Source of the DNA: Desulfatiglans anilini DSM 4660
GTDB taxonomy: Bacteria; Desulfobacterota; DSM-4660; Desulfatiglandales; Desulfatiglandaceae
DNA length: 64,000 nucleotides
NCBI RefSeq assembly: GCF_000422285.1
Contig: NZ_AULM01000014.1
Coordinates: forward strand, 1 to 64,000
Direction: 5' to 3'
Shown: piece by piece, positions 1-63,622 of the stretch
How positions within the stretch are numbered: position 1 is the stretch's first letter
Layout: every line of letters starts with the position of its first letter
The notes under the pieces: generated by a model
What the model was told of the DNA's origin: nothing
The model's input: only the letters and a program-made list of their open reading frames with translations
The model's database searches: none
Program-made: the position numbers and the translations under genes

Positions 1-70
1 CTCCCCGATCGAAAATGGTTTAGCAAAAGGCCCTCTTTTATGCTAGACACATAGTCATTTCCATCCGCGA

Positions 71-230
71 ATGGACTTTCCGGCCGATCCCGGCTTCAAT
101 CTTTTCATCCCCTTGTGCTGCACCTGGGCGGCGTCTCCGCGCAAACGCCCGGTTTCATCGACGCGGCGAAAACCGGGACCAGCCGTGAAGGGGGCGAAGA
201 AACCGGGAATCGCCGCAAACCTTACCTGGT
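71..230. repeat. Degenerate copy of the intergenic palindromic repeat
   Basis: This spacer resembles the repeat family described at 8028-8167 (for example a CGGCCGATCCCGGCTTCAATC-like start and TCCGCGCAAACG further on), but many bases differ and the central palindrome is gone. It lies directly next to the better copy at 231-417. I see no convincing gene in 1-455. The alignment was done by eye, so the boundaries are approximate. Confidence 0.35.
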
Positions 231-417
231 TTCCATCCGGAAACGAGGATTTTTCTTCACACCCTTCGGGTGCTCAGTCCCACCGCTTCGCGGCGGGTCC
301 CGGTTTGGCCAATATCAAGGAAATCAAGCGTTTGCGCGGATGCGACCTGCAGGTCGCCCCACAAGCAAACGTGCAGATTGACGCCGAGATTGGCCAAAAA
401 GACCCTTTCCGGATTGC
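231..417 (-). repeat. Palindromic intergenic repeat, long form (copy A)
   Basis: A long-form member in reverse orientation. It runs from TTTCCATCCGGAAA at the left through a hairpin block (CACCGCTTCGCGGCGGG), TTGGCCAATATC, the core GCGACCTGCAGGTCGC and TTGGCCAAAAAGACC to TTTCCGGATTG at the right. It ends about 40 bp before the ATG at 456, so it makes up most of that gene's upstream region and may be in its mRNA leader. Confidence 0.75.
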
Positions 418-455
418 AACTACCTATTGCAGGGGCAGAGCTCAGGAGAAAAACA

Positions 456-4648: not shown

Positions 4649-4668
4649 AGCCTCTCCCTCCTCATAAG

Positions 4669-4859
4669 TTTCCGTCCGGAAATGGTCTTTTCGGCCAATT
4701 TCGGCGTCAATCTGCACGTTTGCTTGTGCGGCGACCTGCAGGTCGCCTCCGCACAAACCCTTGCTTTTCTTATTACTGGCCAAACCGGGACCCGCTTCGA
4801 AGCGGTGGGATTGAGCATCCGAAGGGTGTGAGGAAAAATCCTCATTTCCGGCCTGGGAA
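4669..4859 (+). repeat. Palindromic intergenic repeat, long form (copy B)
   Basis: A complete long-form member. It has a left terminus around TCCGGAAATGG, then TTTTCGGCCAAT, the 18-bp perfect palindrome GGCGACCTGCAGGTCGCC near the left third, and a hairpin block containing the 14-bp palindrome CCGCTTCGAAGCGG. A second small stem (CATCC-GAA-GGGTG) follows, ending in ATCCTCATTTCCGG. It begins about 20 bp upstream of the start of the cytidylate-kinase-like gene and occupies that gene's promoter side. Confidence 0.8.
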
Positions 4860-7898: not shown

Positions 7899-8027
7899 CC
7901 GCCTGGTCAGACGGCTGCGCCGCAGCCGCTCCAAGCGTTTCGTCTCGCCGTATTTTCCGAAGCGTCCCCTGCGACTCACCGCCCGCAACGCCCCTTCACC
8001 GCCCCCCGGTATCCTTCAGGCGGTCCG

Positions 8028-8167
8028 TTTCCAATCCGGAAATGGTCCTTTTGGCCAATCTCGGCGTCAATCTGCACGTTTGCTTGTGCGGCGACCTGCA
8101 GGTCGCCTCCGCGCAAACGCTTGATCTCCTTGATATTGGCCAAAAATCCTCATTTCCGGATTGGAAA
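8028..8167. repeat. Palindromic intergenic repeat, best short-form copy (copy C)
   Basis: A 140-bp imperfect palindrome centred at 8098/8099. The ends TTTCCAATCCGGAAATG (8028-8044) and CATTTCCGGATTGGAAA (8151-8167) are perfect 17-bp inverted repeats. Inside, TTTTGGCCAAT pairs with ATTGGCCAAAA, and GTTTGC plus the 18-bp perfect palindrome GGCGACCTGCAGGTCGCC plus GCAAAC form the centre. A satellite module follows at 8161-8203. The element has no room for a gene. MITE-like or REP-like status is inferred; no transposase lies nearby. Confidence 0.85.
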
Positions 8168-8310
8168 CCGGTTCTACCGGGAAATCATTTCCGGATGGGA
8201 ACCAGCTCGATTTTCTGAATCTTTCACGAATCCGCTTTCATCCGGCGAAGGTCTTTCGCCGGCCGGCTGCGCCGCTCAGCCCCCTTCATGGCGGATCCGC
8301 CGCCCGGTCC

Positions 8311-8418
8311 CGACGTCAATCTGCACGTTTGCTTGTGCGGCGACCTGCAGGTCGCCACGGCGCGAGGGTGCCATTCCCCTGAAATCAGCAAAAAAATCAT
8401 CCTGTCCGGATTGGAAAC
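8311..8418 (+). repeat. Partial palindromic repeat (copy D)
   Basis: This copy keeps CGTCAATCTGCACGTTTGC, the perfect core GGCGACCTGCAGGTCGCC and a right terminus TCCGGATTGGAAAC, but the right inner arm is replaced by unrelated sequence and the left end is missing. It ends about 10 bp before the earliest rnc start. Between copies C and D lies a separate short stem, CCGGCGAA/TTCGCCGG, near 8240-8262. Confidence 0.6.
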
Positions 8419-11744: not shown

Positions 11745-12273
11745 GCTTTTTGCAAACCTCCACGAATCAAAATCGGAACGGCCTATTGATAAATGAATTC
11801 CCCTTTTCCAGCAAGGTGAAAAAGGGGCGGACCGGGTCTGATCCCGTCCTCGGATCGTTTTTTATCTTGACACCCAACCCATACATCCCGCATACTTTCA
11901 CTAAAAAGTTCCCTTTATCAATGGTTTAAGTCAACATTTCTTTCGACTTCCTGAAATGCCCCCCGTATCCCGGCCCGCAGGGTGCGGCATCCGCTGGATC
12001 CCGGGCGGCTTCACCGATACCCGCCCTTTTTGCCAAGGGCTTTCCAAAGTCGCTGAGACCATCCGCCCCGGAAAGCCGCCGGGCCTATTTCGCAAGTTTT
12101 TGCAATCGAAGCAATCCATTCGGAACCACCATCCCGGTTGAAGGATGTTTTAGTCGCTGGTGTAAAAGGCCTTTCGATCAACCCCAACCGTTCTTGTTTT
12201 TTGTTTTCTTTTTTATTCTCTGGTGCAAAAGGCCGCGGGCCCCCATGAATCATTGCAGAGGCAGGTTCGTGTC
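11745..12273. other. Gene-less spacer upstream of cysC
   Basis: I see no convincing gene here. It holds an 8-bp stem CCCCTTTT/AAAAGGGG (11800-11827) without a T-tract, a possible promoter at 11867-11896, and two short similar strings of the form GGTGYAAAAGGCC near 12157 and 12221. The small open frames in it lack ribosome sites and family features. Confidence 0.5.
11867..11896 (+). promoter_or_regulatory. Possible sigma-70 promoter
   Basis: TTGACA at 11867-11872 is a perfect -35 box. It is followed after 18 bp by CATACT (11891-11896), a 4/6 match to the -10 box. The nearest downstream gene starts at 12581, so either the leader is very long or the transcript is non-coding. The call rests on sequence match only. 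Confidence 0.25.
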
Positions 12274-12500
12274 CCATCCGGAAAGGGGCCTTTTGGCCAA
12301 TCTCGGCGTCAATCTGCACGTTTGCTTGATATTGGCCAAAAATCCTCATTTCCGGTTGGCAAACCGGGTTCTACCGGGAAATCATTTCGTGATGTAAACT
12401 ACTTGATTTCCTTGATATTGGCCAAACCGGGACCCGCCGCGAAGCGGTGGGACTGAGCACTTGAAGGGTGTGAAGAAAAATCCTCATTTCCGGATGGAAG
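12274..12500 (+). repeat. Composite, rearranged palindromic repeat (copy E)
   Basis: Three pieces lie in series. First is an 84-bp derivative (12275-12359) whose whole central palindrome is missing: it goes from CACGTTTGCTTG straight to ATATTGGCC, as if deleted between two CTTG strings. Next is the satellite module (12353-12400). Last is the right half of a long form (about 12403-12495) with CCGCCGCGAAGCGG and CATTTCCGGATGG. It ends about 85 bp before the next start codon. Confidence 0.7.
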
Positions 12501-13361: not shown

Positions 13362-15317
13362 ATGAAGGATACCCAATCCGCCGGAATGATCTATGATTTT
13401 CTGAAAACCGTTCCACCGTTCCATCTCCTGCCCGACGCGGAGATTCGGGACCTCTCGCGCACCTTAACCCTGGAGCACTTTCATCCTGATCAAGTGATCC
13501 TCAGCCCCGGCTCCCCCCCGAACCAATTCCTGTACCTGATCCGCTCCGGCGAGGTCCGGCTCATCCCTTTCGGGGGTCGGAAGGAAAGCGCCGGGCCTGT
13601 GGTCGACATGCGCGGAGAAGGGGAGTTTTTCGGCTTTTTCAGCCTCCTCGGCAACCGGCCGAGTCCTTTCACCATCGTCGCCGAACGGGACACCATTTGC
13701 TTTCTCCTCGGCAAGGCCAGCTTCCTCCGGCTCCTCGACACCTATCCCGATGTCCTCCTGTACTTCACCATGGGCCCCAGCAAGGGCTTCAAGGCCCCCG
13801 TCCCGGGAAGGCCGGCGGAAGGGAGTGCCGCAGCGCCTTCCGGGCCGGAGCCGGACATCCTCTTTTTTTCCGCCCGCGTGCGGGACATCATGCATCCCCA
13901 CGTGGCGGTCTGCCCGGACAACGAATCCGTCGTGGCGGCCGCCCGCCTCATGACCACGCGCGGGGTCGGGTCCCTGGTCGTCGTCGACCCGGCGCAGAAG
14001 CCCATCGGGATCCTGACGGACGGGGACCTCCGACGCAAGGTGATCGCCTCGGGGGAGCTGAAGGATGTCCCCGTCAAAGGGGTCATGAGCCATCCCCTCT
14101 CGGCGGTGCCGCCCGACGCCTTTCTCTTCGATGCCATCCTCCTCATGATCCGCAAACGCATCAAGTACCTGCCCGTCCTCCAGGGACAGGACCTGGCGGG
14201 AATCCTCTCCGAGCGGGACCTCATGATCTCGCAGGGCAACAACCCCGTCGCGATCATCCGCCGCATCCAGCAGGCGCCGGACCTCGAGGAGCTCGTTCTC
14301 ATCCGCAAGGAAATCACCCACACCCTGAAGGTGATGCTCGAGCGCGGCGGGCAGGCGCGGGAGATCTGCCAGCTCATCACCCAACTGAACGACCACCTCA
14401 CGGTCCGGATCATCGAACTGGCCGCGGGGGACCTCGACCGGGAGGGTCGGAAGGCCCCCCCGCTGCCTTTCGTCTGGGTGTCCCTCGGAAGCGAAGGGCG
14501 CCAGGAGCAGACCCTCTCGACCGACCAGGACAACGCCCTGATCTTCGGCGATTCCGACCCCGGCTCGGAGGCGGACGCAAAGGCCTATTTTCTGGTCCTG
14601 GCCGAGCGGGTGGTCTCCGGCCTCGAACGCTGCGGCTTCCCGCGCTGCAACGGAGACATGATGGCCTCGAACCCGCAGTGGTGCCAGCCGCTCAGGGTCT
14701 GGAAGGACTATTACCAGAAGTGGATCTTTCAGCGGGACCTCTCGGCCCAGGACATCCTGATCTCGTCCATCTTTTTCGATTTCCGGGCCATCTACGGACC
14801 GGAGAGCCTTCTGAACGATCTGATCGCCTCCATCAAGGCAGCCATCCCCGAGAGCAAGGTCTTCCTGCCTCACATGGCCCTGCGCTCCCTGGAGCTGCGG
14901 ACGCCGTTGAGCTTCTTCAACCGGCTCGTGGTGGAACGGTCCGGACAGTACAAGAACCGCCTCAACATCAAACGCCACGGCCTGATGCCGCTGATCGACG
15001 CCGTCCGCATCCTGTCCCTCGAACAGGGGATCTTCCGGACCAACACGCTCGACCGCATTGCGGCCCTGATGGAAAGGGACATCTTCGCCCCGGGGGATGG
15101 GAACAACCTGCGGGAGGCCTTCAACCTCATGATGCTCCTGCGGCTGCAGCACAACCTCGAACAACTGAACCAGGGCGAGCAGCTCGACAACTACATCGAA
15201 CCTTCGGAACTGAGCACAATCCAGCGGTCCAATCTGAAAATGGCCTTCAAGGCCATCGACCGCCTGCAGAGCCAGATCGAGATCCGCTACGGCCTGACGA
15301 CCCTCAGGAAACGGTGA
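13362..15317 (+). CDS. cNMP-binding/CBS/nucleotidyltransferase signalling protein, paralog 1
   Basis: A 651-aa cytoplasmic signalling protein. It has a cNMP-binding-like beta-roll (about residues 15-135), two CBS domains (about 170-295, starting VRDIMHPHVAVCPDNESV), a DUF294 nucleotidyltransferase-like domain with GSEGRQEQTLSTDQDNALIF (about 376-395), and a helical DUF294 C-terminal domain. The GS and DQD residues of the transferase site are intact. The CBS pair is expected to bind adenine nucleotides or similar ligands; no target is known from sequence. The ribosome site GGGGGAGAG precedes the ATG. It heads a same-strand run to 24833 and has paralogs at 21592 and 25626. The 230-bp spacer before it shows nothing I recognise. 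Confidence 0.85.
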   Translation: MKDTQSAGMIYDFLKTVPPFHLLPDAEIRDLSRTLTLEHFHPDQVILSPGSPPNQFLYLIRSGEVRLIPFGGRKESAGPVVDMRGEGEFFGFFSLLGNRPSPFTIVAERDTICFLLGKASFLRLLDTYPDVLLYFTMGPSKGFKAPVPGRPAEGSAAAPSGPEPDILFFSARVRDIMHPHVAVCPDNESVVAAARLMTTRGVGSLVVVDPAQKPIGILTDGDLRRKVIASGELKDVPVKGVMSHPLSAVPPDAFLFDAILLMIRKRIKYLPVLQGQDLAGILSERDLMISQGNNPVAIIRRIQQAPDLEELVLIRKEITHTLKVMLERGGQAREICQLITQLNDHLTVRIIELAAGDLDREGRKAPPLPFVWVSLGSEGRQEQTLSTDQDNALIFGDSDPGSEADAKAYFLVLAERVVSGLERCGFPRCNGDMMASNPQWCQPLRVWKDYYQKWIFQRDLSAQDILISSIFFDFRAIYGPESLLNDLIASIKAAIPESKVFLPHMALRSLELRTPLSFFNRLVVERSGQYKNRLNIKRHGLMPLIDAVRILSLEQGIFRTNTLDRIAALMERDIFAPGDGNNLREAFNLMMLLRLQHNLEQLNQGEQLDNYIEPSELSTIQRSNLKMAFKAIDRLQSQIEIRYGLTTLRKR

Positions 15318-28732: not shown

Positions 28733-30538
28733 ATGGGTATCTTAGCATGGACCTGGATCATTGTCGGGTTGTCCTTTTCCTTGTACATCAGCATCGCCAT
28801 ATGGGCCAAAGCCAAAACGACCGGAGACTTTTACGTGGCCGAGCGGCGTGTACCGCCGGTCCTCAACGGCATGGCGACCGGGGCGGACTGGATGTCCGCG
28901 GCCTCGTTCATCTCCATGGCCGGTCTGATCTCCTTCATGGGGCGCGACGGCGCCATGTACCTGATGGGCTGGACGGGCGGCTACGTGCTCCTGGCCATGC
29001 TCCTCGCCCCCTACCTCCGCAAGTACGGGAAGTTCACCGTCCCCATGTTCGTGGGCGAGCGCTACTATTCCAACGCCGCCCGCGTGGTGGCGGTCCTCTG
29101 CGCGATCTTCGTCTCGTTCACTTACGTGGCGGGCCAGATGCGCGGCGTCGGCATCGTCTTTTCGCGCTTCCTGGAGGTCAGCATCAACACGGGGGTCATC
29201 ATCGGCATGGCGATCGTCTTCTTCTACGCCGTCCTCGGCGGGATGAAGGGCATCACCTACACCCAGGTCGCCCAGTACTGCGTGCTGATTGTCGCCTACA
29301 TGCTGCCGGCGATCTTCATCTCCATCATGCTGACCGGCAACCCGATCCCGCAGCTCGGCTTCGGAAGCTCGCTCAGTGAAGGAGGGCAGCAACTGCTGGG
29401 AACGACCGGCGGCTACCTGCTGGACAAGCTCGATCTGCTGCAGCAGGACCTCGGCTTCAAGGCCTACACCGGCGCCGGCGCCAAGAGCACGATCGACGTC
29501 TTCATGATCACCTTCGCCCTGATGGTGGGCACCGCGGGGCTTCCCCACATCATCATCCGCTTCTTCACCACGCCGACCATCCGCGGCGCGCGGGCCTCGG
29601 CCGGCTGGGCCCTCTTTTTCATCGCCCTCCTGTACACCACCGCTCCGGCAGTCGCCTCCTTCGCCCGCTTCAACCTGCTTCTGAGCGTCAACAACAAAGC
29701 CTATGAGCAGGCCCCCCAATGGATCAAGAACTGGTCCAAGACCGGGCTGATCGCTTGGAAGGACAAGAACGGCGACGGCAAGATCCAGTACGCCCCGGGG
29801 AATGCGTTTGCCGGGAAGATCGCCTTTGCCAAGACCCCCGACGGGCAGATGGAGATCGGCCCATACGGTGAGCAGGTGGTCTCGACCCCGCAAACGCCCA
29901 TCGAGACAAGCCGCAATGAACTCTACGTGGACCAGGACATCATGGTCCTCGCCAACCCGGAGATCGCCAGGCTCCCGAACTGGGTGGTGGCCCTGGTCGC
30001 CGCCGGAGGCCTGGCGGCGGCCCTCTCGACCGCCGCCGGACTCCTGCTCGTCATCGCCGCAGCCCTTTCGCACGACCTGATCAAGAGCATCCTCGCCCCC
30101 TCGACCTCCGAAAAAATGGAGCTGGTCTACGCCCGGATCGGCGCGGGGCTGGCGGTCCTCGTCGCAGGCTACTTCGGCATCCACCCGCCGGGGTTCGTGG
30201 CGCAGGTGGTCGCCTTCGCCTTCGGCCTGGCGGCCTCCTCCTTCTTCCCCCTCATCATCATGGGGATCTTCTGGAAGCGGGCCACCAAAGAAGGCGCCAT
30301 CGCCGGCATGATCTGCGGAATCCTCTTCACGGCGATCTACATCATCTATTTCAAATTCATCAACCCTGAACTCAACAACGCCGCCCACTGGCTCTGGGGC
30401 ATCTCCCCCGAAGGGATCGGCACCATCGGCATGCTCATCAACTTCATCGTCATGTTCGTGGTCTCCAAGATCACAAAAGAGCCCCCGCAGGAGGTGCAGC
30501 GGATGGTGGAGAGTCTGCGCTACCCGAGAACCATCTGA
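28733..30538 (+). CDS. Sodium:solute (acetate-type) symporter
   Basis: A 601-aa inner-membrane symporter of the SSS family, ActP-like branch that pairs with DUF4212. About 13 helices are visible. Typical stretches are AERRVPPVLNGMATGADWMS, FVGERYYSNAARVVAV, and AAALSTAAGLLLVIAAALSHD. A long hydrophilic loop (about 325-410) contains WKDKNGDGKIQYAPG, an EF-hand-like acidic stretch. The expected role is sodium-driven uptake of acetate or another short monocarboxylate, which fits acs downstream. Repeat copy F begins 8 bp after the stop. Confidence 0.9.
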   Translation: MGILAWTWIIVGLSFSLYISIAIWAKAKTTGDFYVAERRVPPVLNGMATGADWMSAASFISMAGLISFMGRDGAMYLMGWTGGYVLLAMLLAPYLRKYGKFTVPMFVGERYYSNAARVVAVLCAIFVSFTYVAGQMRGVGIVFSRFLEVSINTGVIIGMAIVFFYAVLGGMKGITYTQVAQYCVLIVAYMLPAIFISIMLTGNPIPQLGFGSSLSEGGQQLLGTTGGYLLDKLDLLQQDLGFKAYTGAGAKSTIDVFMITFALMVGTAGLPHIIIRFFTTPTIRGARASAGWALFFIALLYTTAPAVASFARFNLLLSVNNKAYEQAPQWIKNWSKTGLIAWKDKNGDGKIQYAPGNAFAGKIAFAKTPDGQMEIGPYGEQVVSTPQTPIETSRNELYVDQDIMVLANPEIARLPNWVVALVAAGGLAAALSTAAGLLLVIAAALSHDLIKSILAPSTSEKMELVYARIGAGLAVLVAGYFGIHPPGFVAQVVAFAFGLAASSFFPLIIMGIFWKRATKEGAIAGMICGILFTAIYIIYFKFINPELNNAAHWLWGISPEGIGTIGMLINFIVMFVVSKITKEPPQEVQRMVESLRYPRTI

Positions 30539-30545
30539 GTTTGAG

Positions 30546-30684
30546 TTTCCGGCCGGAAATGGTCTTTTCACCCGATCTCGGCGTCAATCTGCACATTCGC
30601 TTGTGCGGCGGCCTTGAAGGTCGCCTCCGCGCGAACGCTCGATTTCCTTGATCTCGGCTGAAAATCGTCATTTCCGGCTCGAAA
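30546..30684. repeat. Diverged but still palindromic repeat (copy F)
   Basis: This copy has the same outline as 8028-8167 but many changed bases. The ends are GTTTCCGGCCGGAAATG and CATTTCCGGCTCGAAAAC. The centre is GGCGGCCTTGAAGGTCGCC, which still pairs end to end (one G-T). In the arms TTTTCA faces TGAAAA where other copies have TTTTGG/CCAAAA, and TTCGC faces GCGAA where others have TTTGC/GCAAA. These are compensatory changes. It fills the gap between the symporter gene and the acs promoter side. Confidence 0.75.
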
Positions 30685-30844
30685 ACTCCCTCGGGATATC
30701 AACCTTTGTTGTCCGTAAACTCAGGCGCGAATGCTCCCTCGAGCGGAGGGCTTCGAGGCGGCCTCACCGCTCGCAGGCAAGATCATTGCATGTGCCTCAT
30801 CAAAAGAACATCCGGGCGCAGACCCAAGGCTCGATCGAACCTTT

Positions 30845-30860
30845 TGGCACAGATCTTGAC
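30845..30860 (+). promoter_or_regulatory. Possible sigma-54 promoter for acs
   Basis: TGGCAC (30845-30850), five bases, then TTGAC (30856-30860). The -24 half is perfect; the -12 half has TTGA where TTGC is the rule, so activity is doubtful. It is placed about 125 bp before the acs ATG. The nearby sigma-54 regulator at 23490 makes it worth noting. Confidence 0.35.
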
Positions 30861-30983
30861 TCACATGCGAGTTCTCCCTATTTCATCCTTATTCGGTGCA
30901 CCCGGACCAGCCTTAGGCACCGGAAGACCGTGAAGGGCTGTCCGGGCCCTCGACACCCCCATTACGAACAGGAGGCTAACCCG

Positions 30984-32954
<1,971 letters not shown>

Positions 32955-33627: not shown

Positions 33628-33792
33628 CGTCCATTGAAACACCCTTCGGACCCGGCAACGATGGTCCGGCACACGCAAACCCTCCATCGGGAAATGCGGT
33701 TTTTTTGGCGCATACCCAGAAAATCAGACGGCCGGGTGGAGACGATCTGCAGGCCCGGACACAAGCCAGTGTGCCAATGGACGATGCAACGG

Positions 33793-33846
33793 GCCGGACC
33801 GGGACCCGCCCCGAAGGAACGGCGCTGAGCCGTTGAAGGACAGAAA
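33793..33846 (+). repeat. Fragment of the palindromic repeat (hairpin block)
   Basis: ACCGGGACCCGCCCCGAAGG followed by CTGAGCCGTTGAAGGACAG matches the hairpin block of the long-form repeat (ACCGGGACCCGCCGCGAAGC...CTGAGCACTTGAAGGGTG) at about three quarters of positions. The rest of the element is absent. Confidence 0.45.
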
Positions 33847-61482: not shown

Positions 61483-61788
61483 GTCATTCTCTCTGTTGGA
61501 CCCGACTCATTCGATGCGGAAACGAGATGTCCCGCAGGCCGCACAGCTTAACAGGCTTTCCTCAACGAGTCAACGCCGCAGCATCGGCAGGCGCGGACTC
61601 CTCCGGCGCACGGCTGCACCGTCTTGTCCAGCCTGGATCCGGGCTGCTGCGCTGCGACGAACCAAGGCGGGGCGACGCCATTTCCCGGCTTGCCATCCAC
61701 CGGCCGGTGCCCTTATGATAGGCTTCGCCCTCCGGAAACAAATATCCAGCACGACCCGGTTTCCTTCCTGAGATCCCTTTGCGGCGGA
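61483..61788. other. Spacer between divergent DUF2889 and MATE genes
   Basis: No gene or clear promoter is visible. A degenerate repeat fragment follows at 61789-61850. Confidence 0.35.
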
Positions 61789-61850
61789 AATAAGGAAATC
61801 AAGCGCCCACGCTGAGGCGACTTGCAGGCCGCCTCATGCGCGAAGGGGCG
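61789..61850 (-). repeat. Degenerate half of the palindromic repeat
   Basis: AAGGAAATCAAGCG is shared with copy A. The core is GGCGACTTGCAGGCCGCC with two changes from consensus, but its flanks TGAGGC/GCCTCA extend the stem. The termini are missing. An in-frame ATG of the MATE gene at 61836 lies inside this fragment and is unlikely to be the real start. Confidence 0.5.
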
Positions 61851-61952
61851 GATCGAGGCCGGAAGCGGTCGAAAACACCCTTTTCGGAGAGAGGCCGGGT
61901 CATCGCCGTCCGCCGCACCGTGGCCCAAAAAATCATCAGAGGTCCCCGCAGC

Positions 61953-63584
61953 GTGAATGTTTCCTGTTCCAGATGGTCGGAGCCCGGAGGATACCGAGAG
62001 GTCCTCAAGATCGCGATCCCTCTGATCCTGAGTACGGGTGCCTGGTCGATCCAGCACTTCGTGGACCGGATGTTTCTGTCCTGGTATTCCCCCGAGGCCA
62101 TCGCAGCCGCCATGCCGGCCGGCATGCTCAATTTCACCCTCATGAGCATCTTCATCGGCACGGTGAGCTATGTGAGCACATTCGTCGCGCAATATCACGG
62201 CGCGGGGCGGCACCGGGAGATAGGGCCGGTCCTCTGGCAGGGGATGTATGTCTCCATGTTCGGCGGGCTTTGCATGCTCTGCCTGATCCCCCTCGCCGGG
62301 CCCATCTTCGCCTTTGTAGGGCACGATGCGCCCGTGCAGAAAAATGAGGTCGATTACTTCGTCATCCTCTCCATCGGAGGGTTCCCGGCGATTGCGACCC
62401 ATGCGCTCTCCGGTTTTTTTTCCGGGGTTGCGCGTCCCTGGCCGATCATGTGGGTGACCATGGCCTCGACGGCCCTGAACCTGATTCTGGACTATCTCTT
62501 CATCTTCGGCAGGGCCGGCCTGCCCGAAATGGGGATGCGCGGCGCGGCACTGGCCACGGTCCTCGCCGCCGTGTTCTCCCTGGTCGTCATGCTCCTGCTG
62601 GCCTGGCGCACCGCGAACGACACCCGCTACCATACCCTGAAGGGCTGGCGGCCCGATGCGGCGCTGATGCGGCGGCTGCTGCGATTCGGCTTTCCTTCCG
62701 GGATGCAGTTCTTCCTGGACATGAGCGGCTTCACCGGTTTCATCCTCCTCGTGGGAAGGCTCGGCACCCTGCCGCTGGCCGCCACCAACATCGCCTTCAA
62801 CATCAACACAATTGCCTTCATGCCTATGATCGGCTGCGGGATCACGGTATCCGTCCTGGTCGGGCAGCACCTCGGCAGGAACGCCCCTGAGCTGGCCGAA
62901 AAGGCGACCTGGTCGGCGTTCCACATCACCTTCGCCTACATGGCCTCGATAGCGCTCGCCTATGTCCTGATCCCGGAGGTCTTCGTCTCCCCTTTCGCAC
63001 CGGCGGACAACCCGCAGGCCTTCGAAGCCATTTTTCACCTGGCCGTGATCCTCCTTCGCTTCGTCGCCCTCTACTCCATCTTCGACACGCTCAGCATCGT
63101 CTTCGCCTCCGCCGTCAAGGGGGCGGGCGACACGCGCTTCGTCATGCTGATCATCGCCGCCTTCTCGGGTCTCATTCTGCTCGGGCCCGCATACGTGATG
63201 ATCGTCGTCCTGGGGTGGGGCATCATGGCGGCCTGGATCCTGGCCACGCTTTACGTGACCTCGCTTGGCATCGTCTTCCTCCTGCGGTTCCTGCAGGGCA
63301 AATGGAAGGCGATGCGGGTCATCGAACCGGACAAGATCTGGGGCGCCCCCGAAATACCCCCCGTTCGGGAGCAATCGTCCACCCCGCAAAGGCTCCCGAT
63401 ACCAAAACCAGGTTTCCGGCCGGGGAGGCAGCCTGTCCCCATCCTGCAACAGGGAGCTGTCCAGGATGCCTGCCGCTTCGATCAGTCAAGCCCCGCCACC
63501 GACCCGGGCGGACTCGGCACTCCAGGAGTGGAACCAGGCGCGGGATCGTGCAGCAACCGGTTGGACGATCACAACCCCCCGTAG
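61953..63584 (+). CDS. MATE-family efflux transporter
   Basis: About 543 aa with 12 hydrophobic helices. MATE features: ILSTGAWSIQHFVDRMFLSW, GAALATVLAAVFSLVVML, and SAVKGAGDTRFVMLIIAAF. It should export drugs or metabolites against sodium or protons. GTG 61953 is chosen with AGAGG upstream; an ATG at 61836 falls in a repeat. The last 65 residues (after KIWGAPEIPP) are proline-rich and unlike the family, so the C-terminus may be a drifted tail. The substrate is unknown. Confidence 0.85.
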   Translation: MNVSCSRWSEPGGYREVLKIAIPLILSTGAWSIQHFVDRMFLSWYSPEAIAAAMPAGMLNFTLMSIFIGTVSYVSTFVAQYHGAGRHREIGPVLWQGMYVSMFGGLCMLCLIPLAGPIFAFVGHDAPVQKNEVDYFVILSIGGFPAIATHALSGFFSGVARPWPIMWVTMASTALNLILDYLFIFGRAGLPEMGMRGAALATVLAAVFSLVVMLLLAWRTANDTRYHTLKGWRPDAALMRRLLRFGFPSGMQFFLDMSGFTGFILLVGRLGTLPLAATNIAFNINTIAFMPMIGCGITVSVLVGQHLGRNAPELAEKATWSAFHITFAYMASIALAYVLIPEVFVSPFAPADNPQAFEAIFHLAVILLRFVALYSIFDTLSIVFASAVKGAGDTRFVMLIIAAFSGLILLGPAYVMIVVLGWGIMAAWILATLYVTSLGIVFLLRFLQGKWKAMRVIEPDKIWGAPEIPPVREQSSTPQRLPIPKPGFRPGRQPVPILQQGAVQDACRFDQSSPATDPGGLGTPGVEPGAGSCSNRLDDHNPP

Positions 63585-63622
63585 CGGCGGGACTGAGCAC
63601 ACGCAGTGTGCAAGGAGATTGG
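63579..63622 (+). repeat. Fragment of the palindromic repeat (hairpin block)
   Basis: CCCGTAGCGGCGGGACTGAG followed by CACACGCAGTGTGC matches the hairpin block of the long form. The small stem here is GCACAC-GCA-GTGTGC, perfectly paired although copy A has GCACCC/GGGTGT. It overlaps the MATE stop codon. Confidence 0.5.

Follow-up and report, generated by a model that had tools for sequence, protein, structure and literature searches.

The window analysed here, a stretch of 64,000 nucleotides from Desulfatiglans anilini DSM 4660, contains an imperfect palindrome (copy F below) in which changes in one arm are matched by changes in the other. The initial annotation took these paired changes as a sign of selection on the folded form, and named gene conversion between the arms as the alternative. 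The locus thus raises the question of what keeps the hairpin paired, and of whether it is kept at this site or elsewhere. Copy F represents a non-autonomous transposon (MITE) of 176 bp, and the following features can be placed on this copy.

30545..30686, + strand: copy F, the hairpin part of the MITE, from the left inverted end GTTTCCGGCCGGAAATG to the right arm CATTTCCGGCTCGAAAAC (match to structure model R1, 147.1 bits, E 3.4e-31)
30687..30719, + strand: probable decayed 3' module of copy F, with uncertain boundary, from comparison with intact copies
30569..30574, + strand: left side of three compensated pairs (30569-30660, 30570-30659 and 30574-30655)
30655..30660, + strand: right side of the same pairs, with the partners of 30569, 30570 and 30574
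30598 and 30633, + strand: fourth compensated pair, from consensus scoring and ortholog alignment
30580..30586, + strand: conserved internal loop, left side, GGCGTCA
30644..30649, + strand: conserved internal loop, right side, TTCCTT region

Compared with the family consensus, four pairs of copy F are altered on both sides and are still Watson-Crick pairs (model positions 27-117, 28-116, 32-112 and 56-90). Three of them had been read correctly from the sequence: the change of TTTTGG/CCAAAA to TTTTCA/TGAAAA comprises two pairs (27-117, TA>CG, and 28-116, GC>AT), and that of TTTGC/GCAAA to TTCGC/GCGAA is pair 56-90 (TA>CG). The core also pairs as described, with one G-T, at 69-78. The pair 32-112 (AT>GC) had been overlooked, as had three pairing failures, namely G.G at 20-124 and A.C at 53-93, both relative to the consensus, and a C.C mismatch at 29/115, which the ortholog alignment places between compensated pairs. 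On the tree, the 15 changes private to copy F include 3 compensatory pairs where 0.33 are expected (p = 0.00085, 20,000 randomisations). Contrary to what had been stated, copy F is not the most diverged palindrome: it is 85% identical to the consensus, against 64% for the copy at 61758-61897. It lies between genes for a VC_2705-family sodium/solute symporter and an acetate--CoA ligase (window 28733-32954), an arrangement conserved in the sister genome (G001).

The MITE has a modal length of 176 bp. A hairpin interrupted by a conserved internal loop accounts for about 142 bp, and the other 34 bp or so form a right module, which repeats the end and can be multiplied. The inverted ends read GT, T or G, TCCATCC, G or A, G or T, AAATG. 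An exact 6-bp direct repeat, often ending in TA, is found at both ends of 26 of 101 elements (mean of 0.57 and maximum of 3 in 500 sets of shuffled flank pairs), and 39 of 101 have the repeat when up to one mismatch is allowed (3.4 with shuffled flank pairs). In the genome of the window (G000), copy F as query gave 295 first-look candidates, and the end motifs with at most two mismatches occur 252 + 241 times (493), compared to 1 + 1 for the reversed pattern. The covariance model matched 150 of 150 scored candidates, first-look candidates numbering 3300. Inverted ends, 6-bp duplications and copy number together are the signature of a MITE-type transposable element. Terminal inverted repeats, a target duplication of fixed length and numerous dispersed copies, not long enough to encode a transposase, are all present, and the ends are common to an autonomous element, represented by three insertion sequence (IS) copies in the sister genome. 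Some assemblies break within the element (at the starts of contigs C22, C24 and C48 of the window's genome, and at the ends of contigs C17 and C30 of G022), so that counts of the element from draft genomes are probably too low. At one locus (L044) the 3' module is present three times in tandem, resembling a slippage or recombination ladder.

Further copies in the window are found at these places.

8026..8202, + strand: near-consensus full copy with 3' module
8284..8418, + strand: partial diverged copy
4666..4851, + strand: copy carrying the CCGGGACCCGC module as an insertion in its right arm
12269..12497, + strand: rearranged composite copy, short hairpin and module
279..422, - strand: copy with module
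61..172, + strand: strongly diverged partial copy
33684..33795, - strand: diverged partial copy
61758..61897, - strand: most diverged full-length copy of the window, 64% identical to the consensus
63577..63616, + strand: fragment of a separate small-stem module

The last entry belongs to a module of its own, CCGGGACCCGC...GGTGGGACTGAGCACCCGAAGGGTGTG, with two small covarying stems, which is nested in MITE arms or occurs in tandem. It is present in the window at 249-307, 4781-4839, 12423-12481 and 63577-63616, and elsewhere at L048, L040, L186 and other loci. The paired change that had been noted in the small stem of the 63577-63616 fragment is real, and the stem belongs to this covarying family. 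According to a rough regular-expression parsing, the innermost pair is C-G in 12, G-C in 9 and A-T in 1 of 29 copies, and non-Watson-Crick in the other 7. The window also holds three diverged related stretches of DNA (at 14457, 22639 and 26679; 65-80% identical), which are probably paralogous genes.

The MITE is widespread. A search at the DNA level found it in 15 of 41 genomes (the genome of the window and 40 relatives). When the structure model was used instead, with E no higher than 1e-8, the class yielded 51 positive genomes out of 85, and 34 positive genera out of 47. An exact scan with 23 bases identified as carriers metagenome-assembled genomes (MAGs) of Desulfuromonadales/Desulfuromonadaceae and one MAG labelled Chloroflexi; the latter observation, which may reflect contamination or transfer, concerns loci L050, L060, L066 and L068. 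No match to the element was found in plasmid or phage records. A second form (type II), 142 bp long, differs in its inner stem but shares the ends and the loop motif. It is carried by G007, G014, G061, G063, G069 and G073, with one copy in G077, and exact 6-bp duplications flank 8 of the 15 copies with both ends readable, out of 19 examined.

The structure was derived from an alignment (A1) of 48 copies from 11 genomes, out of 64 full-length copies listed. RNAalifold predicts 38 pairs for it, 22 of them with double changes. The full alignment of 147 copies gives a poor structure, probably because decayed copies blur it, and the A1 structure was therefore used. In A1, 95.9% of the cells are paired and 173 are double-changed, and neither value is reached in any of 500 shuffles; structures slid by 1-3 columns have 9-27 double-changed cells. 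Since the copies are related, events were counted on a tree, with a null in which substitutions are re-dealt within each branch by site rate; 142 of the 147 copies (more than 68% identical to the consensus) were kept and 5 dropped. Compensatory double changes number 42 for all 142 copies (null 4.7, maximum 12 in 300), 22 for the 81 copies of the window's genome (null 2.1, maximum 7), 19 for 43 copies of other genomes (null 2.1, maximum 6), and 22 for a set with one consensus for each of 27 genomes (null 1.4, maximum 6 in 500). For the last set, 10 further genomes were added with 20 selected copies, of which the three from G078 are badly aligned in the core. A per-pair test in the style of R-scape with a tree-based null identified a single pair with E below 0.05, one of the 38; in our opinion this is because one deep split dominates. 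The strength of the covariation therefore rests on the pooled test, for which some of the tested data had already served to derive the structure, and the sites tested also underlie the tree. A covariation test had been proposed as a check on the paired changes, and the pooled tree counts place them far above chance. Comparison of stems and loops over the 27 genomes gives a modal identity of 0.90 for the internal loop (model positions 38-44 and 101-106), 0.89 for paired and 0.79 for other unpaired positions. Across a bacterial order, paired changes have preserved the pairing of the MITE.

The comparison with orthologs indicates where it is kept. Copy F lies in a stretch of 4.2 kb that is 94% identical in the sister genome, where the element occupies the same place. 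The four compensated pairs are common to both species, and are thus older than the split. The ten later differences, with direction judged by the consensus, include no compensatory change; seven of them fall at paired sites, where six abolish a Watson-Crick pair and one converts G-T to G-C. Seven further orthologous copies have 61 differences; 3 pairs changed in a compensatory way, and another 25 pair changes are one-sided or of other kinds. One orthologous copy (L038/L226) contributes two of the three compensatory pairs and has no broken pair, which is also compatible with selection acting at the locus, with conversion between arms, or with the copy having been overwritten by another. On the tree, pairs kept or repaired relate to pairs broken as 30:58 on internal and 64:261 on terminal branches, and as 16:33 and 34:205, respectively, in the genome of the window; the genome consensuses have 22 double changes against 41 breaks. 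Older lineages thus keep pairs better than recent ones, and terminal branches hold 28 of the 42 compensatory pairs. As the compensated pairs of copy F predate the split and the later changes break pairs, the fold appears to be kept in the lineages that spread, and not by maintenance of copy F, which now seems to be decaying, as resident copies mostly do. The original claim of selection on the folded form is therefore supported for the family, where the tree counts are far above the null and slid structures have almost no double changes, but not for copy F itself, given its ten uncompensated differences.

A candidate for the transposase that moves the element was found in the sister genome. Among 27 matches to DDE_Tnp_1 (PF01609) in the genome of the window and the sister genome, 3 are flanked by MITE ends, all of them in the latter. 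These three IS copies are 1.69 kb long and mutually 86-95% identical, with the ends GTTTCCATCCGGAAAAC ... TATTTCCGGATGGAAAC, in which one base varies in two copies. One of them is flanked by a TAAATA duplication; none was seen at the other two. The product of 455 residues scores 438.9 bits against transpos_ISNCY_1 of NCBIfam (NF033593, cut-off 325), which places it in the ISNCY family, and contains the Pfam domains DDE_Tnp_1 and DUF772. A related IS in G016 (protein 66% identical) has ends close to those of the elements of that genome and a TAATTA repeat. Similar ends, here with a duplication of 7 bp (TAGTCTA), are also found in ISRle10 of Rhizobium, annotated as ISNCY. The shared ends suggest that such a transposase mobilises the MITE in trans. 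In the genome of the window we only infer mobilisation, since no good match to an autonomous partner was found in its assembly; this absence is weak evidence, because the assembly is broken at such repeats. About 35 bp to the left of one IS copy (L146) are nearly the same as the left flank of a MITE in the genome of the window (L012), which suggests recombination between IS and MITE ends.

Taken as a whole, the hairpin is probably explained by a MITE that is moved in trans by an ISNCY transposase, with a fold that aids its spread and no selection on landed copies. The ISNCY-family transposase would act on the element in trans, and the folded form, a cruciform or a single-stranded hairpin with its internal loop, would help it to spread. 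Only source elements able to fold would leave descendants, and after landing, copies such as copy F would be free of selection and would lose pairs at the ordinary rate. We think that the hairpin acts in DNA during transposition, because there is no sign of a one-strand RNA and the loop is as conserved as the stems; the loop is perhaps a recognition site. A hairpin is not known to be needed for DDE transposition, which counts against the proposal. More tentatively, the hairpin with its loop may itself be a recognised part, as DNA or RNA, of the mobile unit in a DDE-type family, selected over the whole order in source elements only, with two architectures that share the ends and the loop but not the inner stem.

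The main rival is correction of one arm by the other, through template switching or conversion within the palindrome, which would copy a mutation between arms without selection on the fold. Near-palindromes do suffer template switching, and compensatory pairs are found even on terminal branches (28), as well as twice at L038/L226. However, across 27 genomes the flanking stems change but the internal loop is conserved and does not become paired, and the C.C mismatch of copy F persists between compensated pairs. Moreover, mismatches in individual copies are rarely repaired (16 repairs against 205 broken pairs on the terminal branches of the window's genome), and a different inner stem is found together with this end motif and loop. 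Conversion between the arms, the alternative of the initial annotation, is thus rather unlikely, chiefly in view of the unpaired conserved loop and the uncorrected C.C.

It is unlikely that the element is transcribed and that its RNA hairpin serves the host or limits damage, as an RNase III site, a terminator or a small RNA, as proposed for Correia/NEMIS. PMC2229807 describes RNA roles for the hairpins of MITEs, the internal loop is conserved, and the places are mostly intergenic. Copy F is also predicted to fold strongly as RNA on both strands (-59 kcal/mol, z -5.0, and -67.4, z -6.6, for the opposite strand, each beating 200 of 200 shuffles). However, new G-T and new A-C appear equally on the tree (97 and 95 events), without strand preference; the cell counts are 148 for A-C and 108 for G-T, with the constant T.G pair 60-86 left out. 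Among 103 copies placed with a rough codon-based gene caller, orientation to tandem genes is unbiased (16 same, 17 opposite), with 22 in divergent and 5 in convergent gaps, 29 lacking a called gene on one side and 14 overlapping a called ORF. Copy F, furthermore, loses pairs after the species split. Rfam has no match in the window at the gathering score, and a search with one copy at low thresholds gave one chance-level match (E 3.9). A host RNA role is thus unsupported by the G-T to A-C comparison, gene orientation and Rfam. Finally, it is very improbable, and already disfavoured, that the compensation is only apparent, with many copies having inherited it from a few old subfamilies: only one pair is significant in the per-pair test and some, such as 28-116, are subfamily markers, but events counted once per branch are still above the null in all four sets (42 vs 4.7, 22 vs 2.1, 19 vs 2.1, 22 vs 1.4).

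MITEs with stable hairpins are well known, although to our knowledge it is not settled whether bacterial MITEs owe their hairpins simply to having inverted ends or whether the hairpins are themselves under selection. Correia/NEMIS, RUP and ERIC resemble the present family in being short and intergenic, with inverted ends, target duplications, a stable hairpin and presumed mobilisation in trans by an IS (PMC2229807 and PMC10969869); a word search of these two texts found no mention of compensatory change. In contrast to them, pairing and internal loop are kept here over 27 genomes, and the partner is of the ISNCY family. The ISNCY-family IS (that of the sister genome and ISRle10) have matching or similar terminal inverted repeats and TA-rich duplications of 6-7 bp, whereas the MITE lacks a transposase and, by eye, resembles the IS only over the terminal 15 bp or so, with an unrelated interior.

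REPINs, which are linked to the Y1 (single-strand) transposase RAYT, also form hundreds of hairpin elements with arms that change in step, and compensatory changes in them are noted in PMC3116915. Unlike REPINs, the MITE makes 6-bp duplications and has the ends of a DDE transposon. Y1 transposase genes gave 16 matches, and none of the 10 loci examined carries MITE ends; together with the target duplications, this led to the rejection of a REPIN/RAYT origin. PMC2996986 describes multicopy sequences of Geobacter bemidjiensis, intergenic families of which some are palindromic, and which are similar by description; PMC2674063 reports that stem loops repeated on Borrelia plasmids have compensatory changes. 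No paper on the present element was found in searches of the open-access literature. From the known hairpin repeats, the family is set apart by the DDE-type partner with its duplications, the order-wide breadth and the conserved loop.

With hundreds of copies, a named partner transposase and listed stem, loop and end positions, the family makes the question of the hairpin directly testable. The comparison of orthologs, as a method, separates selection on spreading elements from selection on a resident copy. If the hairpin and its loop are indeed a recognised part of the mobile unit, paired mutations would mark the lineages that could still jump.
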